From NCBI RefSeq assembly GCF_900104745.1, contig NZ_LT629732.1, forward strand, positions 248,001 through 312,000: DNA of 64,000 bases. Direction: 5' to 3'. This stretch comes from Actinopolymorpha singaporensis (GTDB lineage: Bacteria; Actinomycetota; Actinomycetes; Propionibacteriales; Actinopolymorphaceae). The notes beneath the pieces are model-generated. The model had not been told where the DNA came from. It made no database searches and worked only from the letters and a program-made list of their open reading frames with translations. Shown here one piece after another: positions 1,806 to 14,123 of the stretch (its first letter is position 1; the number at the start of each line of letters is the position of its first letter). The position numbers and the translations under genes were made by a program.

Positions 1806-3299
1806 CTATCCCGCCGCCAGCGCCGCGGCGAGTTCGTCGTCAGACGGGTCCGGCAGCGGCGGCCGGCCGACGCTGCCCAGGATCTCCCGAACCCGGCGTA
1901 CGACCGCCGGATCGGCCAGGACCTCCTCGGCCGGGGTGAGCATGCCGAGCAGCCGGACGTGGGCGCGGAAGAGTTCGGGATCGAAGCCGGCCGCCTGACG
2001 CAACGAGGTGAGATCGACCCGCCCGTCGGCCCCTTCGACCGCCCCAGCCGCCCACTCCGACTCGGCCGACTCGGCCGACTCGGCCGGCCCAGCCGGCCCA
2101 GCCGGCCCAGCCGGCCCAGCCGGCCCAGCTGGTGTACCTCGAAGCTCTCGCCGCAACGCGGCCAGCCGGGCGGCGTCGATCGCCGCCTGGTCGGCGAACC
2201 ACGGCTCGATCCGGGTCGAGGTCAGCTCGTCCATCACCTTGGTGAGCTCCTCGACCGGGTACTCCCCCACCGCGCCCGCCAGGTGGATCACCTCCTGCAG
2301 GGCGAACGCGATCCCGCGGGCGAAGGTCGGGTTGGTGGTGCACAACGAGTCACCGACGGCGAGGATCCCTGACGCGACGGGCGTGCCGTCCACCACCAAC
2401 CGGCGCAGCGTGTTGTGCAGGTCGCCCATCGGGTAGACGTCGGTCTCCGGGTCCATCACGTCCAGCCAGGCGGCGGCCTGCGGCACGGTGCGCGCGACGG
2501 CCGTGAACGCCGCGGGGTCCCGCACCGCCTTGAACGCGCGGTCCTCAGCCGGTGGCACCAGGCACAGCCCCACCGTGTCGTGGTCACAGCCGAACATCGC
2601 CAGCATGAACCTCCGCATCGGGAGGTTCACCACCGTCGCCGGCGGGCCGGGCAACGTGGCCGCGGGCCGCAGCCGGTAGTAACGGGTGTAGTAGGAGACG
2701 CCGCACTCGGCGGCGGTGACCTCGGTGGGCCGCGCGCCGATCCCCCGCAGCCAGTGGTCGATCCGGGTACGCCGGCCGGACGCGTCCAGAACCAGGTCGG
2801 CCCCGACGGGCCCGACGTCGGTGGTCACCCCGGTCACCCGTGGCGGGTCCCCGGCGGTCGCCGTCAGGCCGGTGACCCGTACGCCCGAACGCACGGTGAC
2901 ATCGGGCTCCGCGGCGACCGTCCGCCGAATCACCCAGTCGATGGTCGAACGCCGGAACAACAACATGGCGAGCTCGTCGTCGCCCGGCCGCGGCGACCGG
3001 TCGGCCAGGGTGGGCGGCATTTGCTGGACGAGGGAGTGCTCCACGACGCCGGCGTCCAGCCAGCCCGCGTACACGTCCGGAAGATGTTCGCGCACGGGCA
3101 ACCGGCCAAGTGGCCGGAGAACGTGCAACTGGACGATCTGGGGTGCGCCCGCGCGGAACGCCGTCGCCGCGGCGGCTTCCGGGTCGCCCGCCGGCGCCAC
3201 GTCGTCGCGGTCGAGCACGATCACCTCGTGCCCGCGCCTGCCGAGAAGCGTCGCCGCGAGCAGCCCCGACAGGCTGCCACCGACCACCGCGATCCGCAT
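1806..3299 (-). CDS. FAD-dependent monooxygenase-like oxidoreductase
   Basis: A 497-residue flavoprotein starting MRIAVVGGSLSG. The N-terminal GxSxSG dinucleotide fold (residues 5-16), a glutamate/aspartate-rich strand end (VIVLDRDD) and a VLDASGRRT segment mark the 2-polyprenyl-6-methoxyphenol hydroxylase-like class. The substrate is unknown. Residues about 390-413 form a collagen-like GPA/ESA low-complexity stretch encoded by 9-bp tandem repeats, unusual inside a flavoenzyme and probably a surface linker. An open frame continues upstream of 3299, but homology begins at this ATG. It stands alone, facing the TetR gene. Confidence 0.8.
   Translation of the reverse strand: MRIAVVGGSLSGLLAATLLGRRGHEVIVLDRDDVAPAGDPEAAAATAFRAGAPQIVQLHVLRPLGRLPVREHLPDVYAGWLDAGVVEHSLVQQMPPTLADRSPRPGDDELAMLLFRRSTIDWVIRRTVAAEPDVTVRSGVRVTGLTATAGDPPRVTGVTTDVGPVGADLVLDASGRRTRIDHWLRGIGARPTEVTAAECGVSYYTRYYRLRPAATLPGPPATVVNLPMRRFMLAMFGCDHDTVGLCLVPPAEDRAFKAVRDPAAFTAVARTVPQAAAWLDVMDPETDVYPMGDLHNTLRRLVVDGTPVASGILAVGDSLCTTNPTFARGIAFALQEVIHLAGAVGEYPVEELTKVMDELTSTRIEPWFADQAAIDAARLAALRRELRGTPAGPAGPAGPAGPAGPAESAESAESEWAAGAVEGADGRVDLTSLRQAAGFDPELFRAHVRLLGMLTPAEEVLADPAVVRRVREILGSVGRPPLPDPSDDELAAALAAG
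2059..2130. repeat. 9-bp minisatellite inside flavoprotein gene
   Basis: Four tandem copies of a CGACTCGGC unit run into five copies of GGCCCAGCC. All units are 9 bp, so copy-number change would keep frame. On the coding strand they give ESA and GPA tripeptides. Confidence 0.85.
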
Positions 3300-3510
3300 G
3301 GCGGACCTCCCGCTCGAACACCGCCCGGGCGTGCGGCCCCGTACCGCCGACCATGGCGGGCGGTGTGTCCATGGGGAACGTACATACCGGGCGACGACCC
3401 CGCAACGACCAACGGGAAACGATGCCGACTCGGCGGGCCGAACTCCTCCGGCGCGCCGCCGAACCTCCCCGGCGCGCCTGGATCCGCCCTGTGAAATCGT
3501 CGGTGGGGCT

Positions 3511-4281
3511 ATGACCGAACCGCCCGATCTGCCCCGCCCGCCCGGTACGCCACCGGCCTCGCCGACACCCGCATCTCCGCCTGCGCACCGGCCGCCGCCT
3601 CCGCCGACGACGGCGCTCACCCTGCTGGCGCTGGGCTCCGGCGCGACCGACGCGCTCAGCTTCGCCGCCCTGGGTGGCGCGTTCACCAGCGTGATGACCG
3701 GCAACCTCGTGCTCACCGGACTCGCCGCCGGGAAGGCCCAGCCGGTACCGGATCTCCTGCCGTCGGCGTTCGCCATCGCGGCGTTCGTCGCCGGCGTGTT
3801 CTTCGTGTCCCGCCTGCTGCGCACCGCGCGTTCCAACCCACAGGATCCGTGGCCGCCGCGGATCACCGTGGCGCTGTCGATCACTGCGGTCGCCCAGGTC
3901 GCCGTACTCACCGGCTGGCTGGTCACCGCCGGGGACCCGGCGCCGGTGGCGCGGGCCGGGCTCATCGTGCTCGCCGGACTGGCCATGGGGTCGCAGAGCG
4001 CGGCGGTCAACGCGCTGTGCCTGCCCGCGGCGGCGTCGACGTACCTCACCGGCACACTCGCCATGCTCACCAGCGAGCTCGCGACCCACGGGACCCGCGA
4101 GACCGTCCTCCGCCGGCTGGCCCTGCTGCTGGCGGTGGTGGTCGGCGCGGCCGGGGAGGCTCTGCTGCTGGACCACGCGCACCGGCTCGCTCCGGTGCTT
4201 CAGGTGAGCGCCGCCGTCGTGGTGGTCGTCCTCGGCCTGGTGCGCGACCTCCGTCACCGCAGGTCGGTGCGTACCGGCTGA
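3511..4281 (+). CDS. DUF1275 (YoaK) family membrane protein
   Basis: A 256-residue integral membrane protein. A proline-rich cytosolic N-terminus (residues 1-34) precedes about six hydrophobic segments. The segment SGATDALSFAALGGAFTSVMTGNLV is the hallmark of the DUF1275/YoaK family, a group of uncharacterised transporter-like proteins. The start at 3511 is chosen because GGTGGGG lies just upstream. It is divergent from the flavoprotein, with no shared regulatory palindrome that I could see. Confidence 0.8.
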   Translation: MTEPPDLPRPPGTPPASPTPASPPAHRPPPPPTTALTLLALGSGATDALSFAALGGAFTSVMTGNLVLTGLAAGKAQPVPDLLPSAFAIAAFVAGVFFVSRLLRTARSNPQDPWPPRITVALSITAVAQVAVLTGWLVTAGDPAPVARAGLIVLAGLAMGSQSAAVNALCLPAAASTYLTGTLAMLTSELATHGTRETVLRRLALLLAVVVGAAGEALLLDHAHRLAPVLQVSAAVVVVVLGLVRDLRHRRSVRTG

Positions 4282-6044: not shown

Positions 6045-6185
6045 GCAGAGCGGGGCTGTGGACGGCCGGCCGCGGCTGGGGGTGGCACCTGGCACGATGC
6101 TCAGGACAAGTCCCAGGCCGGCACCGATGACCAGCGTCCCGATGCCGGCCGTACGACCGTCGTGCATGCGAAGTGGAGCCAGACC

Positions 6186-8816
6186 GTGACCGAAGCCATC
6201 GAGGCAGCCCCCACACCGGCCCAGTCGTCGGCCCAGGCGGCCGCCGCCCTCCACCAGCGGATCGCCGAGGAGCTCGGCGTCCGCGAGGGGCAGGTCAGGG
6301 CCGCGGTGGAGCTGCTCGACGGCGGAGCCACCGTGCCGTTCATCGCGAGATACCGCAAGGAGGTCACCGGCACGCTCGACGACGCGCAGCTGCGCACACT
6401 GGAGGAGCGCCTGCGTTACCTCCGTGAGCTGGAGGAACGCCGCGCCGCGGTCCTCGACTCGATCCGCGAGCAGGGCAAGCTGGACGCGGGGCTGGAGGCC
6501 CGGATCCTGGCCGCCGACTCCAAGGCCCGGCTGGAGGACATCTATCTCCCCTACCGGCCCAAGCGGCGGACCAAGGCGCAGATCGCCCGCGAGGCCGGGC
6601 TCGAGCCACTCGCCGACGCCCTGCTCGCCGACCCGTCGCTGGATCCGCGGGAGACGGCTGCCGGTTACGTCGCCCCGGACCGTGGCGTCGCCGACGCTGG
6701 CGCCGCACTGGACGGCGCCCGGTCGATCCTGGTCGAGCGGTTCGCCGAGGACGCCGACCTGATCGGCGAGCTCCGCGAGCTGGTGTGGTCCCGCGGGCGG
6801 CTGGTGACGAAGGTGCGCGCCGGCCGGGAGGAGGCCGGGGCGAAGTTCGCCGACTACTTCGACTTCGCCGAGCGCTTCACCTCGCTGCCGTCCCACCGCG
6901 TGCTGGCCGCCTTCCGCGGCGAGAAGGAGGAGGTCCTCGACCTCACCCTGGAGCCGGAGGAGCCGACTTTGTCAGCCGGCGACGGGCCGGCCGACGTCGC
7001 GGCGGGCCGCACCGACTTCGAGGCCCGGATCGCCGACAGGTACGCCATCACCCACCAGGGTCGCCCCGCCGACGGCTGGCTGGCCGACACAGTGCGGTGG
7101 GCGTGGCGTACGCGAATCCTCGTCCACATCGGCATCGACCTTCGGATGCGGCTGCGCCAGGCCGCCGAGGACGAGGCGGTGCGGGTGTTCGCAGCCAACC
7201 TCCGTGACCTGCTGCTCGCCGCGCCGGCAGGCGCCCGGCCGACCATGGGTCTCGACCCGGGCTTCCGTACCGGCGTGAAGGTCGCGGTCGTCGACGGCAC
7301 CGGCAAGGTGGTGGCGACCGACACCATCTATCCGCACGTGCCCGCCCGGCGGTGGGACGACTCCCTGGCCACCCTCGCCCGGCTGGCGCGGGAGCACCAC
7401 GTCGAGCTGATCGCGATCGGCAACGGCACCGCTTCGCGGGAGACCGACAAACTGGCCGAGGATCTCATCCGCCGGCAACCGGAGCTCAAGCTCACCAAGG
7501 CGGTGGTGTCCGAGGCCGGCGCGTCCGTCTACTCCGCCTCCGCGTACGCCTCGGCCGAGCTTCCCGGAATGGACGTCTCACTGCGCGGCGCGGTGTCCAT
7601 CGCCCGCCGGCTGCAGGACCCGCTCGCGGAGCTGGTGAAGATCGACCCGAAGTCGATAGGGGTCGGGCAGTACCAACACGATGTGTCGGAGACCAAGCTG
7701 TCCCGCTCCCTCGACGCGGTGGTCGAGGACTGCGTCAACGCCGTGGGCGTCGACGTCAACACCGCATCCGCGCCGCTGCTGACCCGGGTGTCCGGAATCA
7801 CCGAGACCCTCGCGGCCAACCTCGTGGCCCACCGCGACGCCAAGGGGCCGTTCCGCTCCCGGCGGGCACTGAAGGACGTTCCCCGCCTCGGGCCGAAGGC
7901 GTTCGAGCAGTGCGCGGGCTTCCTGCGCATTCCGCAGGGCGACGATCCGATCGACTCCTCCAGCGTGCACCCGGAGGCCTACCCCGTCGTACGCCGGATC
8001 CTGGCCTCGGTCGGTGGCGACCTGAAGAGCCTGATCGGCAACACCTCGACCCTGCGTGGGCTGAAGCCGTCGGACTTCGTGGACGAGACGTTCGGACTGC
8101 CGACCGTCACCGACATCCTTGCCGAGCTGGAGAAACCGGGCCGCGACCCGCGGCCGGGGTTCCGCACCGCGACGTTCGCCGAGGGGGTGGAGGAACTCAC
8201 CGACCTCGCGCCCGGGATGGTGCTCGAAGGTGTGGTGACCAACGTCGCGGCGTTCGGTGCGTTCGTCGACGTGGGCGTCCACCAGGACGGGCTGGTGCAC
8301 GTGTCGGCGATGTCGAAGAACTACGTGAAGGATCCGCGCGAGGTCGTCAAGCCCGGCGACATCGTGAAGGTGAAGGTTCTCGAGGTCGACGTCGCCCGTA
8401 AGCGGGTGTCGCTGACCCTGCGGCTCGACGACGAGGTCGGCGGCGCGCCTTCCGGTGGCCGGGGTGGTTCGCGGTCCGGCTCGTCGAAGTCGGATGGGCC
8501 GAAATCCGGCTCATCGAGGTCGGATGGGCCGAAGCCTGGTGGTGACGCACGTTCGGGCCGCGGCCGGCGGCCCGGCCCCGCTGACGGCCGCGGCGGGTCC
8601 GGCCAACGCGGCGGGTCCGGCCAACGCGGCGGGTCCGGCCAACGCGGCGGGTCCGATCAGCGCGGTGACTCCGGCCAGCGTGGCCGGGGCCAGCGCAACG
8701 ACCGCGGCTCTGGCCGGCGCGACGACTCCGGTCAGCGTGCCGGCACCGACACCGCGCTGGCGGACGCACTGCGCCGCGCCGGCCTGGTCGGTGACGACCA
8801 GCGCGGCAAGCGGTAA
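6186..8816 (+). CDS. tex: Tex-like RNA-binding protein with RGG-like tail
   Basis: An 876-residue homologue of the transcription accessory protein Tex. It has a helical N-terminal part, a YqgF/RNase H-like domain ([16 protein letters not shown] near residue 350), tandem helix-hairpin-helix segments (near 510-570), and an S1 RNA-binding domain ([20 protein letters not shown] near 680-750). The GTG at 6186 is preceded by GTGGAG at a normal distance; an in-frame ATG at 6162 lacks a ribosome binding site. The last ~120 residues are a Gly/Ser/Arg/Gln-rich tail built from GGSGQR repeats, resembling RNA-binding RGG regions. It is transcribed alone. Confidence 0.93.
8590..8665. repeat. 18-bp tandem repeats in tex tail
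   Basis: Four in-frame copies of an 18-bp unit (GGCGGGTCCGGCCAACGC and one variant) encode successive [12 protein letters not shown] hexapeptides. Further degraded copies follow to about 8745. Confidence 0.8.
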
Positions 8817-8857
8817 GTACGCCCGGTCACTGCCACCCTCCGCAGGTGGGAATCGCG

Positions 8858-8873
8858 TTCCTCCGCGGAAGAA
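8858..8873. repeat. Degenerate copy of the TTCTTCCGCGGAAGAA palindrome
   Basis: TTCCTCCGCGGAAGAA differs by one base from the perfect palindrome found three times at 9599-9783. It lies in the 96-bp gap between the convergent tex and DUF402 genes. Confidence 0.6.
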
Positions 8874-8912
8874 TCGTCCGTTCAGTGCAGCGGGGGCTCC
8901 AGCCGGGCGCCC

Positions 8913-9584
8913 TCACCCATGTCGCCGGGCAGACCACGCCACCCCGGTCGCCCGGTAAGCGGCCGGAAGAGTTGGGCGCTCCCACGTCGGATCCGGCTGC
9001 CACTCCAGCCACCTCGCCTCGAACGGACCGGTGCGGGCCTTCGCCTGCGCGAGCACGGCGTGCGCGTGGTCTTCCAGGGTGCCGAGCAGTTGGCCGTCGA
9101 GTACACCCCGGCGGACCGCGTCGTCGAAGTCCTCACGGTCCTTCCAGGCCCACGAACCGTCCGGCCGTACCTGAACGTCGAGCACGAGGTCCATCGTCTG
9201 AATGCCGTCAGGCTTCCGCGTCAGCGGTAGTTCCAGGTTGACGTACCACCCGAGGAAGTCTCCCGTCTCGGTCCACCCGAGAATGACCCGCGCCCAGGTG
9301 CCGGGCGAGAAGAAGTGCAGCGTGCACAGGCCGATCGGCCGCTCGACGACCTCGTAGACAAGGGTCTGCATCGCGAGCAGCTTGCGTTCCGAACGTGGGA
9401 GGCACTCGCGCCCGGGGACGCCGACGCTGCTCGCGTAGGCGCCGGTCGTACCGGCGGGCACGTGGGTGACGCACCAGAGGCCGTCCTCGACGACCACGTG
9501 CGGCACAGCGCTCCACAGATGACCGTGCCAGCGTTCCTCCACGATCAGCGGCGTTCCGGGCCGCCAGGTGTCCTGGAGAGTCAT
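8913..9584 (-). CDS. DUF402 domain protein
   Basis: A 223-residue protein beginning MTLQDTW. The start at 9584 follows GGAGGA at a good distance; the frame stays open further upstream only because it reads through the palindromic repeats. The central part (VYEVVERPIGLCTLHFFSPG and LGWYVNLELPLTRKPDG) matches the DUF402 fold, an FomD-like beta-barrel; characterised DUF402 proteins include nucleoside-diphosphate phosphatases. Aspartates in LDVQVRPDGSWAWKDREDFDDAV would be metal ligands by analogy. It lies divergent from the LGFP-repeat gene, with the gap filled by palindromes. Confidence 0.75.
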   Translation of the reverse strand: MTLQDTWRPGTPLIVEERWHGHLWSAVPHVVVEDGLWCVTHVPAGTTGAYASSVGVPGRECLPRSERKLLAMQTLVYEVVERPIGLCTLHFFSPGTWARVILGWTETGDFLGWYVNLELPLTRKPDGIQTMDLVLDVQVRPDGSWAWKDREDFDDAVRRGVLDGQLLGTLEDHAHAVLAQAKARTGPFEARWLEWQPDPTWERPTLPAAYRATGVAWSARRHG

Positions 9585-9598
9585 CGCACCAGTCCTCC

Positions 9599-9783
9599 GA
9601 TTCTTCCGCGGAAGAATCCGCGCCTCGTTCTTCCGCGGAAGAATCCGCGCCATGCCAGGACTCCGGAGATCGCGCCGGTGTTCCTGGACGACCGGCGGCC
9701 TTTCCGGGGTTCCGGCTGTCGTGGCCGAGCACTACACTTCGATCTCCCCAAGCCGCTGCGAGTTCTTCCGCGGAAGAACTCGC
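9599..9783. repeat. Cluster of three TTCTTCCGCGGAAGAA palindromes
   Basis: The perfect 16-bp palindrome occurs at 9601-9616, 9628-9643 and 9763-9778. Flanking symmetry extends the first to 20 bp (9599-9618) and the third to 26 bp (9758-9783). All lie in the 325-bp gap between the divergent DUF402 and LGFP-peptidase genes. They could be operators for a dimeric regulator, extragenic palindromic repeats or paired hairpins. No other gene is evident in this gap. Confidence 0.85.
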
Positions 9784-9909
9784 TCGCTCGCAACGGTCTT
9801 CGCGGCCCGGGAGTTCTACTTTGCACGACCGGGCCAGTGTGCGCACTTGCCCTCCTGGGGTCCGCCGGTGTCGCGGCGTGGCCCGACGAGCTTTGCTGAA
9901 GGGGAGCAC

Positions 9910-11721
9910 ATGAACGCCGTTCGCGTCCGAGCGCGGCTGCGCGCCAAGGCGGTTGCCGCACTCACCGGTGCGGTCCTGGTCGGGGCCGGCGCACTCGCGC
10001 CGTCGGCCGGGGCGACACCCGTCGCGCCGACACCGACGCCGACCGCCACCCCGACGGCGTCGCCGACACCAACGGCGCCGACGCCCACCGGGACCACAAC
10101 CCCGACGCCCGAGCCCGGGACGCCCACCCCGAAGCCAACCCCGACTGCCGACAAGCCGCCCGCGCCGACGGACCCGGCCACCGCGGCCGACGCCGCCACC
10201 GCGATCGAGGCGCGCTACCAGGAACTCGGCGGCAGCACCGGCATCCTGGGAGTGGCGACCTCGGCGGTCACCGCGATCACCGGCGGTTACGTCCGCAGGT
10301 TCGAGAACGGCAGCATCTACTACTCGGCGTCGACCGGCGCCTGGGACGTGCGCACCGGCCCGATGCAGAACTACTACGACTTCCTTGGCGCGCAGGAGAG
10401 CAAGCTCGGCTTCCCGACCGGCGCCCAGTACACCGGCGCGTTGGCCGGAGTTCTGATCCAGCGCTTCACCGGCGGCCGCATCTACTACTCGGTGGCCACC
10501 GGGGCGCGCGGCGTGTACGGCCCCCTGCTGGCCCGCTACCTCGCCCTCGGCGGCGAGGCGGGAAAGCTCGGCCTGCCCACCAACGGCGAGGGTTCGGCAC
10601 AGCCCACCGGCGCACGGCTCAGCGCGTTCGAACACGGCCGCATCTACTGGTCGTCGACGACCGGCGCCTGGGACCTGACCGGCGTGATGCTCGACTACTA
10701 CGTCAAGCTCGGTGGCTCGGCTAGCCCGCTCGGCCTGCCCACCAGTGCGGCGTACTCGGCCGCGGGTGGCGTCACCGTGCAGAACTTCGTCAAGGGCCGG
10801 GTCTACCACAGCAGCACGACCGGCGCGCAGGGCGTCTACGGCGCGACCCTGGACCGCTACCTCCAGCTCGGCGGATCGGGCGGCGTGCTCGGCCCGCCCA
10901 CCGTGGCCGAGAGGGCGGGCAAGAAGGCCGGCTCCCGGGTCACGGTGTTCAAGAATGGTCGAATCTGGTACTCCAGCAAGACCGGTGCCCGTGAGGTTCG
11001 CGGCGTGACCCTGGCGCGGTACCTCTCCATCGGGGCCGAGGCGTCGCGGATCGGCCTGCCGAACACCTACCACAAGCAGACGTCGTACGGCGACTGGCAG
11101 GGCTTCGAGTACGCCGTGATGAAGTACTACTCCTCGACGAAGAAGGCCTACGTCCGGATGGCGTTCACCGTGACGTCGAAGACGCCGACGGCAGCCGACA
11201 TCCCCTACACCTACCGCAGTGGCTGCCCGGTCGGGCCGTCGTCGCTGCGGATGCTGAAGGTGGTTTTCCGGAACTTCTACAACGACGACCAGTACGGCAC
11301 GATCGTGGTGCGTTCCACCGTCGTCGACGACATCACCGCGATGTACCGCGCGGCGTACGACCACGGCTGGCCGTTCCGCCGGGTCAACCCGGTCGACGTG
11401 TACCAGGGCGACGACATCAAGGCGATGGCCGCCGACAACACCTCGGCGTTCAACTGCCGCAAGGTCACCGGCAACCCGTACAAGCTTTCCCAGCATTCTT
11501 ATGGAAATGCCATCGACATCAACACCTACGAGAATCCCTACGTCACCGCCAGCAACGTCTACCCTGAGGGTTCGGACACCTATCTCAACCGCGGCAACAA
11601 GCGCAAGGGAATGATCCTGCGGGGCGACCCGGTCGAGTCCACGCTGCGAGGCAGGGGCTGGCCGTGGGGCGCGCGCTGGAGCTACCCCGACTACCAGCAT
11701 TTCTCCGAGAACGGCGGCTGA
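9910..11721 (+). CDS. Secreted LGFP-repeat protein with C-terminal M15 peptidase domain
   Basis: A 603-residue exported protein. A signal peptide (residues 1-37) is followed by a Pro/Thr-rich wall-spanning linker (38-95), then six ~53-residue LGFP repeats (LGG..G.LG.PT, with GRIYYS and TGA motifs) to about 420. The rest is an M15-type D-Ala-D-Ala carboxypeptidase-like domain with zinc-site motifs SQHSYGNAIDIN and a terminal DYQHF. LGFP repeats anchor proteins to the actinobacterial envelope and M15 enzymes cleave peptidoglycan stem peptides, so a cell-wall hydrolase role is likely. AAGGGGAG precedes the ATG. It forms an operon with the lipoprotein 3 bp downstream, and a shorter paralogue follows. 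Confidence 0.9.
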   Translation: MNAVRVRARLRAKAVAALTGAVLVGAGALAPSAGATPVAPTPTPTATPTASPTPTAPTPTGTTTPTPEPGTPTPKPTPTADKPPAPTDPATAADAATAIEARYQELGGSTGILGVATSAVTAITGGYVRRFENGSIYYSASTGAWDVRTGPMQNYYDFLGAQESKLGFPTGAQYTGALAGVLIQRFTGGRIYYSVATGARGVYGPLLARYLALGGEAGKLGLPTNGEGSAQPTGARLSAFEHGRIYWSSTTGAWDLTGVMLDYYVKLGGSASPLGLPTSAAYSAAGGVTVQNFVKGRVYHSSTTGAQGVYGATLDRYLQLGGSGGVLGPPTVAERAGKKAGSRVTVFKNGRIWYSSKTGAREVRGVTLARYLSIGAEASRIGLPNTYHKQTSYGDWQGFEYAVMKYYSSTKKAYVRMAFTVTSKTPTAADIPYTYRSGCPVGPSSLRMLKVVFRNFYNDDQYGTIVVRSTVVDDITAMYRAAYDHGWPFRRVNPVDVYQGDDIKAMAADNTSAFNCRKVTGNPYKLSQHSYGNAIDINTYENPYVTASNVYPEGSDTYLNRGNKRKGMILRGDPVESTLRGRGWPWGARWSYPDYQHFSENGG

Positions 11722-12659: not shown

Positions 12660-14123
12660 ATGAACCAGAGGACAACGGGTGCCGGCTGCCCGTCGCGACC
12701 GGGCAGGAGACGCCCGAGGCCGGCCCGTGGGACGGCTCCGACCCTGCTGCTGGCGGCCGGGGTGCTGAGTCTGCTCCTGCCACAGGGTTCGGCGCTCGCA
12801 GGGAAAGCGCCGAACCCGGAGTACGCGGGGAACGCGGCGCTCACGGCGACCGCTGCTCCCGCGGGGATCACGGCGACCGCTGCTCCCGCGGCGCTCACGG
12901 CGACCGCCCCGGCGGTGGACCCGGTGGCGGCGATCGAGGCCCGATACCAGCAACTCGGCGGACCCGCGGGTGTGCTCGGCCCGCCCGCGTCGCCGGTGGT
13001 GGCGGTCCCGCATGGGTACCGCCGGGTCTACGCCCACGGCCACATCTACTACTCCCCGGCCACCGGGGCCTGGGAGGTGCTCGAACCCTTCCTCGCCTAC
13101 TACCTCGGGCTCGGCGCCTCGGCCAGCGCCCTCGGCCTCCCGACCAGCGCGGCGTACACCTCCGGACGCGGCGCCAGGGTGCAGAACTTCGACGACAGCA
13201 GGGTCTACTGGACGCCCGCAACCGGCGCGCACAGCGTCTACGGGCCGACGCTGGCGCGGTACCTCGCCCTCGGCGGCTCTGCGGGGTCGATGGGGATTCC
13301 GACGATCTCCGAGCACGCCGGCAAGCGACCAGGGGTACGGGTGACGGGCTTCTCCAGCGGCCGGATCTGGTACTCCCCGAGCACCGGCGCACGCGAGATC
13401 CGCGGCGCGATCCTGGCGAAGTACCTCCGGATGGGCGCCGAGGCGTCGTGGATCGGCGTACCCACCGGCTACATGTGGCGCACGGTCTACGGCTACCGGC
13501 AGGACTTCCAGCACGCGTCCCTGCAGGACATCCACGAACGCAGAGGGGTCTACGTCCGGCTTCCCTTCTCGACTTCGGTACGCACGCCGCGGGCCAGCGA
13601 CCTTCCCTACACCTACCGCAGCGGCTGCCCGGTGCCGCCGTCCGGGCTGCGGATGATCAGTGTGCCGTTCCGCCGTTTCGACGGCGACGACCACTGGGGC
13701 CTGATCGTCGTCCGGGCAGACGTGGTTCCCCAGATCACCCTGGTGTTCAAGCACGCCCACGCCAACTGGTGGGTGATCCGGCAGGTTCGCCGGGTGGACA
13801 AGTTCCGCGGCAGCGACGAAGCGTCGATGGCCGCCGACAACACCTCGGCGTTCAACTGCCGCAAGGTCACCGGCAACCCGTACAGGCTTTCCCAGCACTC
13901 TTACGGGAACGCGATCGACATCAACACGTTCGAGAACCCCTATGTCACGCCGAGCCGGGTCTACCCGCCCGGCTCGGCCACCTACCTCGACCGCGGCAAC
14001 GTGCGCCCGGGGATGATCGTGCGCGGCGACCCGGTGGAGAGCACCATGCGCAGGCTGGGCTGGCCGTGGGGTGCGCGCTGGGCCTACCCCGACTACCAGC
14101 ACTTCTCCTCCAACGGCCGCTGA
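12660..14123 (+). CDS. Secreted LGFP-repeat/M15 peptidase paralogue (four repeats)
   Basis: A 487-residue paralogue of the 9910-11721 product. A signal peptide (about residues 1-47) precedes an Ala/Thr-rich linker built from ITATAAPA-like repeats, four LGFP repeats instead of six, and the same M15 domain with SQHSYGNAIDIN and DYQHF. The C-terminal domains share long identical stretches, including AADNTSAFNCRKVTGNPY, so the pair arose by duplication and then changed repeat number. The ATG at 12660 follows a GGGGGGA ribosome binding site; an upstream in-frame ATG at 12612 lacks one. A terminator-like hairpin separates it from the lipoprotein gene, so it probably has its own promoter. Confidence 0.88.
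   Translation: MNQRTTGAGCPSRPGRRRPRPARGTAPTLLLAAGVLSLLLPQGSALAGKAPNPEYAGNAALTATAAPAGITATAAPAALTATAPAVDPVAAIEARYQQLGGPAGVLGPPASPVVAVPHGYRRVYAHGHIYYSPATGAWEVLEPFLAYYLGLGASASALGLPTSAAYTSGRGARVQNFDDSRVYWTPATGAHSVYGPTLARYLALGGSAGSMGIPTISEHAGKRPGVRVTGFSSGRIWYSPSTGAREIRGAILAKYLRMGAEASWIGVPTGYMWRTVYGYRQDFQHASLQDIHERRGVYVRLPFSTSVRTPRASDLPYTYRSGCPVPPSGLRMISVPFRRFDGDDHWGLIVVRADVVPQITLVFKHAHANWWVIRQVRRVDKFRGSDEASMAADNTSAFNCRKVTGNPYRLSQHSYGNAIDINTFENPYVTPSRVYPPGSATYLDRGNVRPGMIVRGDPVESTMRRLGWPWGARWAYPDYQHFSSNGR

Follow-up and report, generated by a model that had tools for sequence, protein, structure and literature searches.

The window analysed here is a 64,000-nt stretch of Actinopolymorpha singaporensis DNA, positions 248001-312000 of a 6.40-Mb contig. 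Scanning its full length located the 16-mer palindrome TTCTTCCGCGGAAGAA exactly at 9601-9616, 9628-9643 and 9763-9778, and a one-mismatch copy, TTCCTCCGCGGAAGAA, at 8858-8873. The features of the region are given below, with gene boundaries drawn by our own codon-model gene finder, which was trained on the window and is not a standard annotator:

6162-8816, plus strand: gene for a Tex-like S1 RNA-binding protein, 884 aa (Pfam PF22706, PF16921, PF09371, PF00575)
8858-8873: palindrome copy 1, one mismatch (TTCCTCCGCGGAAGAA), in a 96-bp convergent gap
8913-9584, minus strand: gene for a DUF402 protein, 223 aa (Pfam PF04167, E 2.2e-12), with copies on both sides
9599-9618: copy 2, exact 16-mer (9601-9616) within 20 bp of perfect symmetry
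9628-9643: copy 3, exact 16-mer in the divergent gap, separated from copy 2 by 11 bp
9758-9783: copy 4, exact 16-mer (9763-9778) within 26 bp of perfect symmetry
9910-11721, plus strand: gene for an LGFP-repeat/M15 peptidase, 603 aa (Pfam PF08310, PF13539), the divergent neighbour

These positions bear out the sequence-only reading of this DNA, which had described three perfect copies and one near-perfect copy, 26 bp of perfect symmetry at one of them (9758-9783), one copy past the DUF402 stop codon and three in the divergent gap toward the LGFP peptidase, and no others in the window; allowing up to three mismatches, we likewise detected no further match to TTCTTCCGCGGAAGAA elsewhere in the window. 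Dinucleotide shuffles of the window yielded 0.15 copies on average, and none of 100 shuffles reached four. Copy 1 is located 41 bp past the stop codon of the Tex gene, the convergent neighbour of the DUF402 gene, and 39 bp past the DUF402 stop. Within the 325-bp divergent gap, copy 2 is found 16 bp ahead of the DUF402 start codon and copy 4 in the middle. Copies 2 and 3 are predicted to pair with each other to form one long hairpin, with predicted folding energies for 9591-9660 of -33.2 and -35.3 kcal/mol, one value per strand. A terminator scan of 8780-9960 returned two terminator-like sites where 0.6 were expected; the one at 9607-9622 falls on a copy. Rfam gave no match in the window at gathering score. 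The peptidase gene at 9910-11721, which carries a long Pro/Thr-rich stretch near its start, is one of two adjacent window genes (9910-11721 and 12915-14123) encoding LGFP-repeat/M15 peptidases.

The palindrome was counted in the window's own genome (G000) and in five further Actinopolymorpha genomes (G001-G005). Seven exact copies were found on the 6.40-Mb contig of G000 and none with the reversed control, the chance expectation from base composition being about 0.0003 per 6.4 Mb. Four of the seven lie outside the window on this contig, 1.0 to 4.7 Mb along it, so the idea of a family around the DUF402 gene is correct inside the window and incomplete for the contig. When up to three mismatches were allowed, 29 matches were obtained in G000 versus 14 for the control, and therefore only the closest matches were regarded as trustworthy. 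Exact copies number 7, 4, 62, 2, 21 and 22 in G000 to G005, respectively, and all reversed-pattern controls gave zero. The sequence-only reading was to be abandoned if the palindrome occurred at chance level and was not conserved in close relatives; with 2 to 62 copies in all six genomes of the genus, neither is the case. In G002 the copies are distributed over most of the contig, a 0.87-Mb stretch (3.998-4.868 Mb) being free of exact copies. No DnaA boxes were identified in six contig ends inspected. In the first and last 14 kb of the G000 contig (L227 and L228, G000:C1), the runs of called genes match in lengths and spacing, and judged from these the contig assembly probably overlaps itself.

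As far as sampled, the family is restricted to the genus Actinopolymorpha. Two other genera of the family, represented by one genome each, contain no copies; in a class sample of 394 genomes the only copy-bearing genome is the window's own (0 of the 393 others), and an 18-mer occurred in four of 293 genomes of the order, all four of them Actinopolymorpha. Searching a 20-mer in a collection of 84,980 species retrieved 18 stretches, 12 from Actinopolymorpha rutila and six single matches elsewhere, namely on three contigs of two Geodermatophilaceae MAGs, in one actinobacterial assembly and in two spirochaete MAGs. Each outside stretch that was fetched holds a single copy; three of these copies (L079, L082 and L086) lie within called genes, the one at L071 has no called gene nearby, and the two spirochaete matches represent one place in related MAGs. 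A spread of the family beyond the genus was therefore rejected. Eight phage contigs of IMG/VR contain the palindrome, one copy each. Open PMC papers yielded nothing on the 16-mer and related words, and among those on Actinopolymorpha repeats none concerned such palindromes, as far as their titles and the beginnings of their abstracts tell.

Placement relative to genes, which were called by the same window-trained codon model, was evaluated for 138 sites with at most one mismatch, comprising all 15 of G000, 60 of G002 (among them 56 of the 62 exact copies), all 30 of G004 and 33 of 35 of G005. After setting aside 12 sites in called genes or at stretch edges, 126 sites remain in gaps, of which 67 are convergent, 46 tandem and 13 divergent; in background stretches, convergent and divergent gaps account for 21.6% and 29.4% of gap bases, respectively. 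The tests were performed per genome because matching sites of different species are not independent, and convergent gaps made up 6 of 12 distinct gaps in G000 (p 0.028), 15 of 36 in G002 (p 0.0053), 11 of 21 in G004 (p 0.0019) and 12 of 20 in G005 (p 0.00022). Divergent gaps are under-represented, at 8 of 89 distinct gaps. A separate count covered 120 intergenic sites: facing gene 3' ends lay a median of 65 bp away (n=176), facing 5' ends 180 bp (n=64), and 28 of 42 sites in tandem gaps were nearer to the upstream stop. The copies are thus mostly intergenic and placed beside gene 3' ends. G001 and G003 were kept out of the gap counts; their seven sites (two convergent, two tandem, two divergent and one in a gene) display no convergent bias and are too few to judge. 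The window's own copies, three of four in a divergent gap, have the least typical placement of the family.

The neighbouring genes at ten scanned loci are unrelated to one another, and include those for Tex, GroEL, rhodanese, methyltransferase, ABC transporters, IMP dehydrogenase, PRA-PH and a DDE transposase, among others. A local regulator is therefore unlikely, and the operator of a single regulon was rejected on the same neighbours and on the 8 of 89 divergent gaps. Regulator sites of a local system had been the first of three options offered by the sequence-only reading, the others being REP-like elements and substrates of a site-specific system; it does not agree with copies that extend far beyond the locus and are rare in divergent gaps. 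In a long stem behind groEL in G001, the apex is formed by one copy; in G003, a DDE transposase gene is found 625 bp from one copy. At L044 (G002:C1:3090100-3095600, 1858-3638), three palindromes lie in 1.8 kb with no called gene; parts of this stretch align with G004 and G005, and a gene may have been missed. At L065, an ABC-type ATPase gene beside palindromes matched 24 PADLOC models, mostly ATPase parts (best mad3). These matches were taken as generic, PADLOC returned nothing for the three neighbour genes in the window, and an association with defence was rejected.

Alignment of the exact sites in 212 orientations gave a perfectly symmetric 22-bp consensus, GGATTCTTCCGCGGAAGAATCC. No one-sided tag is enriched in these 212 site orientations, the flanks being symmetric (TCC side). 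Outside the core the sequence is free, yet the two sides are often complementary. At 50 exact G002 sites, the pairing observed at offset 11 was reached by none of 2000 partner shuffles and that at offset 12 by one of 2000. Five or more further pairs beyond the 16-mer were formed by 19 of 60 sites in G002 (4.06 with exchanged flanks, reached in 0 of 2000 exchanges), by 6 of 29 in G004 (0.96) and by 8 of 32 in G005 (1.43; 1 of 2000 exchanges each), and by 2 of 14 in G000 (0.84; 416 of 2000, not significant). Variable arms beyond the fixed core therefore pair more often than exchanged flanks do in three of the four genomes, G002, G004 and G005. Comparing matching sites, the arms of L041 and L162 are entirely different and fully paired in both, and L033, L157 and L144 keep a paired arm through a g-to-a/c-to-t exchange. 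In L033 of G000 and L036 of G004, the two mismatches mirror each other and preserve the palindrome; in other decayed copies the changes are not symmetric. Part of the core conservation comes from selecting the sites of G000, G002, G004 and G005 at no more than one core mismatch. The core is kept more strictly than pairing requires, which suggests that some putative protein reads the strict apex.

Stem-loops of this kind recall terminators, but no T-tract follows the palindromes across 117 tails (T was 6-19% at positions 2-30 from the end of the 16-mer, compared with 15% in intergenic DNA), and a classical intrinsic (rho-independent) terminator was rejected. A known structured RNA family was also rejected, since the single Rfam match obtained at eight loci fell far below gathering score and away from any site. 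Paired uptake sequences of Neisseria and Haemophilus are terminators of shared sequence, in which the repeated word, present in thousands of copies, forms the stem. The Actinopolymorpha family resembles them in reusing one short sequence as a hairpin at many gene ends, and differs in that the word forms the apex, the outer stems vary, there is no T-tract and copies number in the tens.

The aligned DNA of the four copy-rich genomes (G000, G002, G004 and G005) is 88-90% identical and roughly equidistant, with third codon positions diverging by 14-15%. Of the palindrome clusters compared, 26 of 33 in G002 and 12 of 12 in G000 have a partner in another species, a partner here meaning that the two stretches align and each has a palindrome, with sameness of the site itself judged by eye. 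Several matching sites also share flanking letters. Species thus carry the palindrome at matching places, and many positions are inherited. The core is exact in many matching copies despite the third-position divergence. At 15 matching places without a known intact copy, three hold 2-3 mismatches, one holds 5 and 11 hold none better than 6. At several of them the unaligned stretch between conserved flanks is shorter (58 bp vs 405 bp at L049, 36 bp vs 243 bp at L047), showing that whole copies are lost or gained between species. G000 has 7 exact and 8 one-mismatch copies, G004 has 21 and 9 and G005 has 22 and 13, and G002, with 62 exact copies genome-wide, has just four one-mismatch copies among the 60 fetched sites. 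By arithmetic against the third-position divergence, the G000 copies decay at an approximately neutral rate and those of the other genomes have been kept cleaner.

For the window's own copies, copy 1 has a one-mismatch counterpart in the matching G005 gap (L089:1448) and none within three mismatches in the matching gap of G002 or G004. G002 has an exact counterpart of copy 2 in the corresponding position (L030), its flanks being similar; in G005 the counterpart has three mismatches, and in G004 none was detected. No counterpart of copy 3 was seen in G002, G004 or G005, and copy 4 has counterparts with one, two and three mismatches in G004, G005 and G002, respectively. The L009 site of G000 is intragenic, as are its counterparts in G004 and G005, which may be a coding coincidence. 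A single convergent gap of G005 (L143, G005:C19:62200-67800, 2478-3147) contains six exact copies and one three-mismatch copy in 670 bp; the matching stretches have one copy in G000, two in G004 and four in G002.

A first alternative is that the palindrome is the site of a conserved homodimeric DNA-binding protein, either a regulator or a Noc/ParB-type nucleoid or chromosome organiser with tens of sites. Noc- and ParB-type sites are short perfect palindromes in tens of copies round the chromosome, as are those of Actinopolymorpha, and the perfectly symmetric consensus with no one-sided tag, the exactness of matching cores despite the divergence of third positions, and the distribution over most of the G002 contig around a 0.87-Mb stretch free of exact copies would all fit such a protein. 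It would, however, need neither the variable co-varying arms outside the core nor the bias to gene 3' ends and convergent gaps, features that distinguish the family from Noc/ParB sites. Unrelated neighbours at the ten scanned loci, a range of 2 to 62 copies among congeners, odd for an essential site, and the nearly neutral decay in G000 also speak against it, and we consider this explanation unlikely.

The palindromes of G002 are often paired about 230-325 bp apart, many of them around tandem hairpins, GAAGCGTGAAGAC...GTCTTCACGCTTC. Double-hairpin bodies are 66-76% identical among eight G002 inserts and one G004 insert, as seen in the best 45 of 231 rows. Another dispersed hairpin in extragenic DNA, GAAGTGTGGAGACTTACGGGG...CCCCGTAAGTCTCCACACTTC, about 50 nt in length, was found in four of eight genomes searched (G000, G002, G004 and G005; controls 0). 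Its places in G000, all outside the window, are as follows:

G000:C1, about 911554, 1421776, 2229930, 2532700 and 2539862: hairpin of about 50 nt
G000:C1, about 3022213, 3825616, 4924707, 4925789 and 5655656: hairpin of about 50 nt

In G000 this hairpin occupies gaps in which G002 carries the palindrome (L050 and L057). Hairpin places within 300 bp of a palindrome amount to 11 of 17 in G002, 5 of 9 in G004 and 0 of 10 in G000; 1 of 7 in G005 was counted near a palindrome by eye. REPINs consist of one REP in alternating orientation. The same is described for BIMEs in excerpts of PMC2817692. G002 palindromes that bracket tandem hairpin pairs likewise make composite intergenic repeats, and differ from both in being composed of two unrelated repeat families.

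This arrangement raises a second alternative, in which the palindrome would be a recombination or insertion site where small non-coding units, often of about 210-310 bp with a tandem pair of ~52-bp hairpins, would be inserted at a palindrome or deleted between two, an empty site having one palindrome and a filled site two. Flanks were compared at eight filled loci in 16 comparisons. At L060, two G002 palindromes 265 bp apart enclose a double hairpin; in G000, G004 and G005 just one palindrome is present, and its flanks correspond to the outer sides of the G002 pair (outer z 2.2-7.5, inner z 0.1-3.0). L042 (outer z 3.5 and 2.3 vs inner -1.3 and 0.4) and L032 (best outer z in G005 and G004 of 8.3 and 2.9 on the right, 0.5 and 1.9 on the left) agree in part, and the recurrence of the double-hairpin body in the eight G002 inserts and one G004 insert, together with the proximity of hairpins to palindromes in G002 and G004, points the same way. 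Against it, the signal is weak at L059 (0.4 and 2.0) and mixed at L056, and an inner flank scores above the outer ones at L036, L048 and L037 (z 3.7, 4.6 and 3.6), so that just three of the eight filled loci speak for insertion. The inserts of L032 and L042 also differ from each other in sequence, hairpins are rarely near palindromes in G000 and G005, no candidate recombinase was identified, and the pattern would equally result, with no enzyme needed, if hairpin DNA were deleted between short direct repeats flanking it. The suggestion of a substrate for a site-specific system may apply at L060 and less fully at L032 and L042, where one relative has at least two palindromes with DNA between them and other species have one, and is weak, mixed or contradicted at the other filled loci; as an account of the family we regard it as improbable. 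It is quite doubtful that the palindrome is the target and boundary of an undescribed non-autonomous mobile system, whose short non-coding cassettes, for the most part tandem double hairpins, would both insert and excise at 16-22 bp palindromes. Each insertion would then add one palindrome, by a logic analogous to that of integron cassette sites and without a Y1 transposase; on this view G002 (62 exact copies) would house an active family and G000 (7 exact, 8 one-mismatch) a dying one.

That the copies are local operators of a regulator of the DUF402 and LGFP peptidase genes is highly improbable: three copies do lie in their divergent gap, the DUF402-proximal one is exact at the same place in G002, and a second DUF402 paralogue is also near a palindrome in four species (L015, L032, L156 and L139), but copies are dispersed genome-wide, most sites elsewhere are outside divergent gaps, and the gap copies show decay in G005, and partial decay or absence in G002 and G004. 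At L155 (G004:C1:1257888-1258536), a DUF402 relative was matched in two pieces, as if interrupted or frameshifted.

Among the three options of the sequence-only reading, REP-like elements fit best, as the palindrome is dispersed, mostly intergenic, biased to gene 3' ends, able to form a hairpin and variable in copy number. In the consulted parts of PMC3733652, REPs are small (20-40 bp) palindromes that are mostly intergenic, mainly between convergent and same-direction genes near 3' ends, and excerpts of PMC2817692 describe their palindrome as kept by complementary mutations. The Actinopolymorpha family is similarly a short palindrome in many intergenic copies (2-62 exact per genome of the genus, 126 of 138 sites in gaps), located beside gene 3' ends and mostly in convergent or same-direction gaps except at the seven sites of G001 and G003, kept through complementary changes and variable in copy number among related genomes. 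It differs from GTAG and CGTC REPs in lacking either tag at one end, in combining a fixed apex with variable outer arms, and in its actinobacterial host, the word 'actinobacterium' occurring in neither main text as consulted (PMC3733652, PMC2817692). GTAG repeats are further set apart by their transposase: PF01797 (Y1 transposase) had no match in the copy-rich G000, G002, G004 and G005, and nine matches in G001 and seven in G003, the copy-poor genomes, so no Y1/RAYT match accompanies the palindromes where they are abundant. With the tag and, in the copy-rich genomes, the Y1 matches missing, membership in REP/RAYT was rejected. CGTC repeats are said to have no dedicated transposase in the consulted part of PMC3733652, and so a missing transposase would not by itself be new. 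Placement, arms and dispersal match REPs while tag and transposase are missing, which indicates a REP-like way of working outside the tagged classes.

We therefore favour, as the probable explanation, a genus-specific, dispersed, extragenic REP-like palindrome family (22-bp GGATTCTTCCGCGGAAGAATCC) acting as a hairpin at gene 3' ends, a role that we infer from placement and pairing. Copies would be transcribed at mRNA ends, often from both sides between convergent genes, and the hairpin would mark or protect the mRNA 3' end or block read-through. Several observations weigh against this account: no T-tract follows the hairpins, the core is stricter than pairing calls for, the excess of arm pairing is not significant in G000, three of the window's four copies stand in a divergent gap, the seven sites of G001 and G003 lack the convergent bias, and six contigs outside the genus contain single exact 20-mers. 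The three copies before the DUF402 gene would represent an incidental cluster of the family, and the two copies at 9601 and 9628 might in addition reduce DUF402 expression.

Repeats with the GTAG tag are linked to Y1 transposases, and the Actinopolymorpha family has neither the tag nor, in its copy-rich genomes, the transposase. It joins an invariant apex to freely varying paired arms and some clean filled and empty sites in a genus-wide actinobacterial family, and its four roughly equidistant genomes allow spread, loss and function of such repeats to be separated. If a protein does bind or cut the palindrome, it would constitute a new repeat-processing activity.
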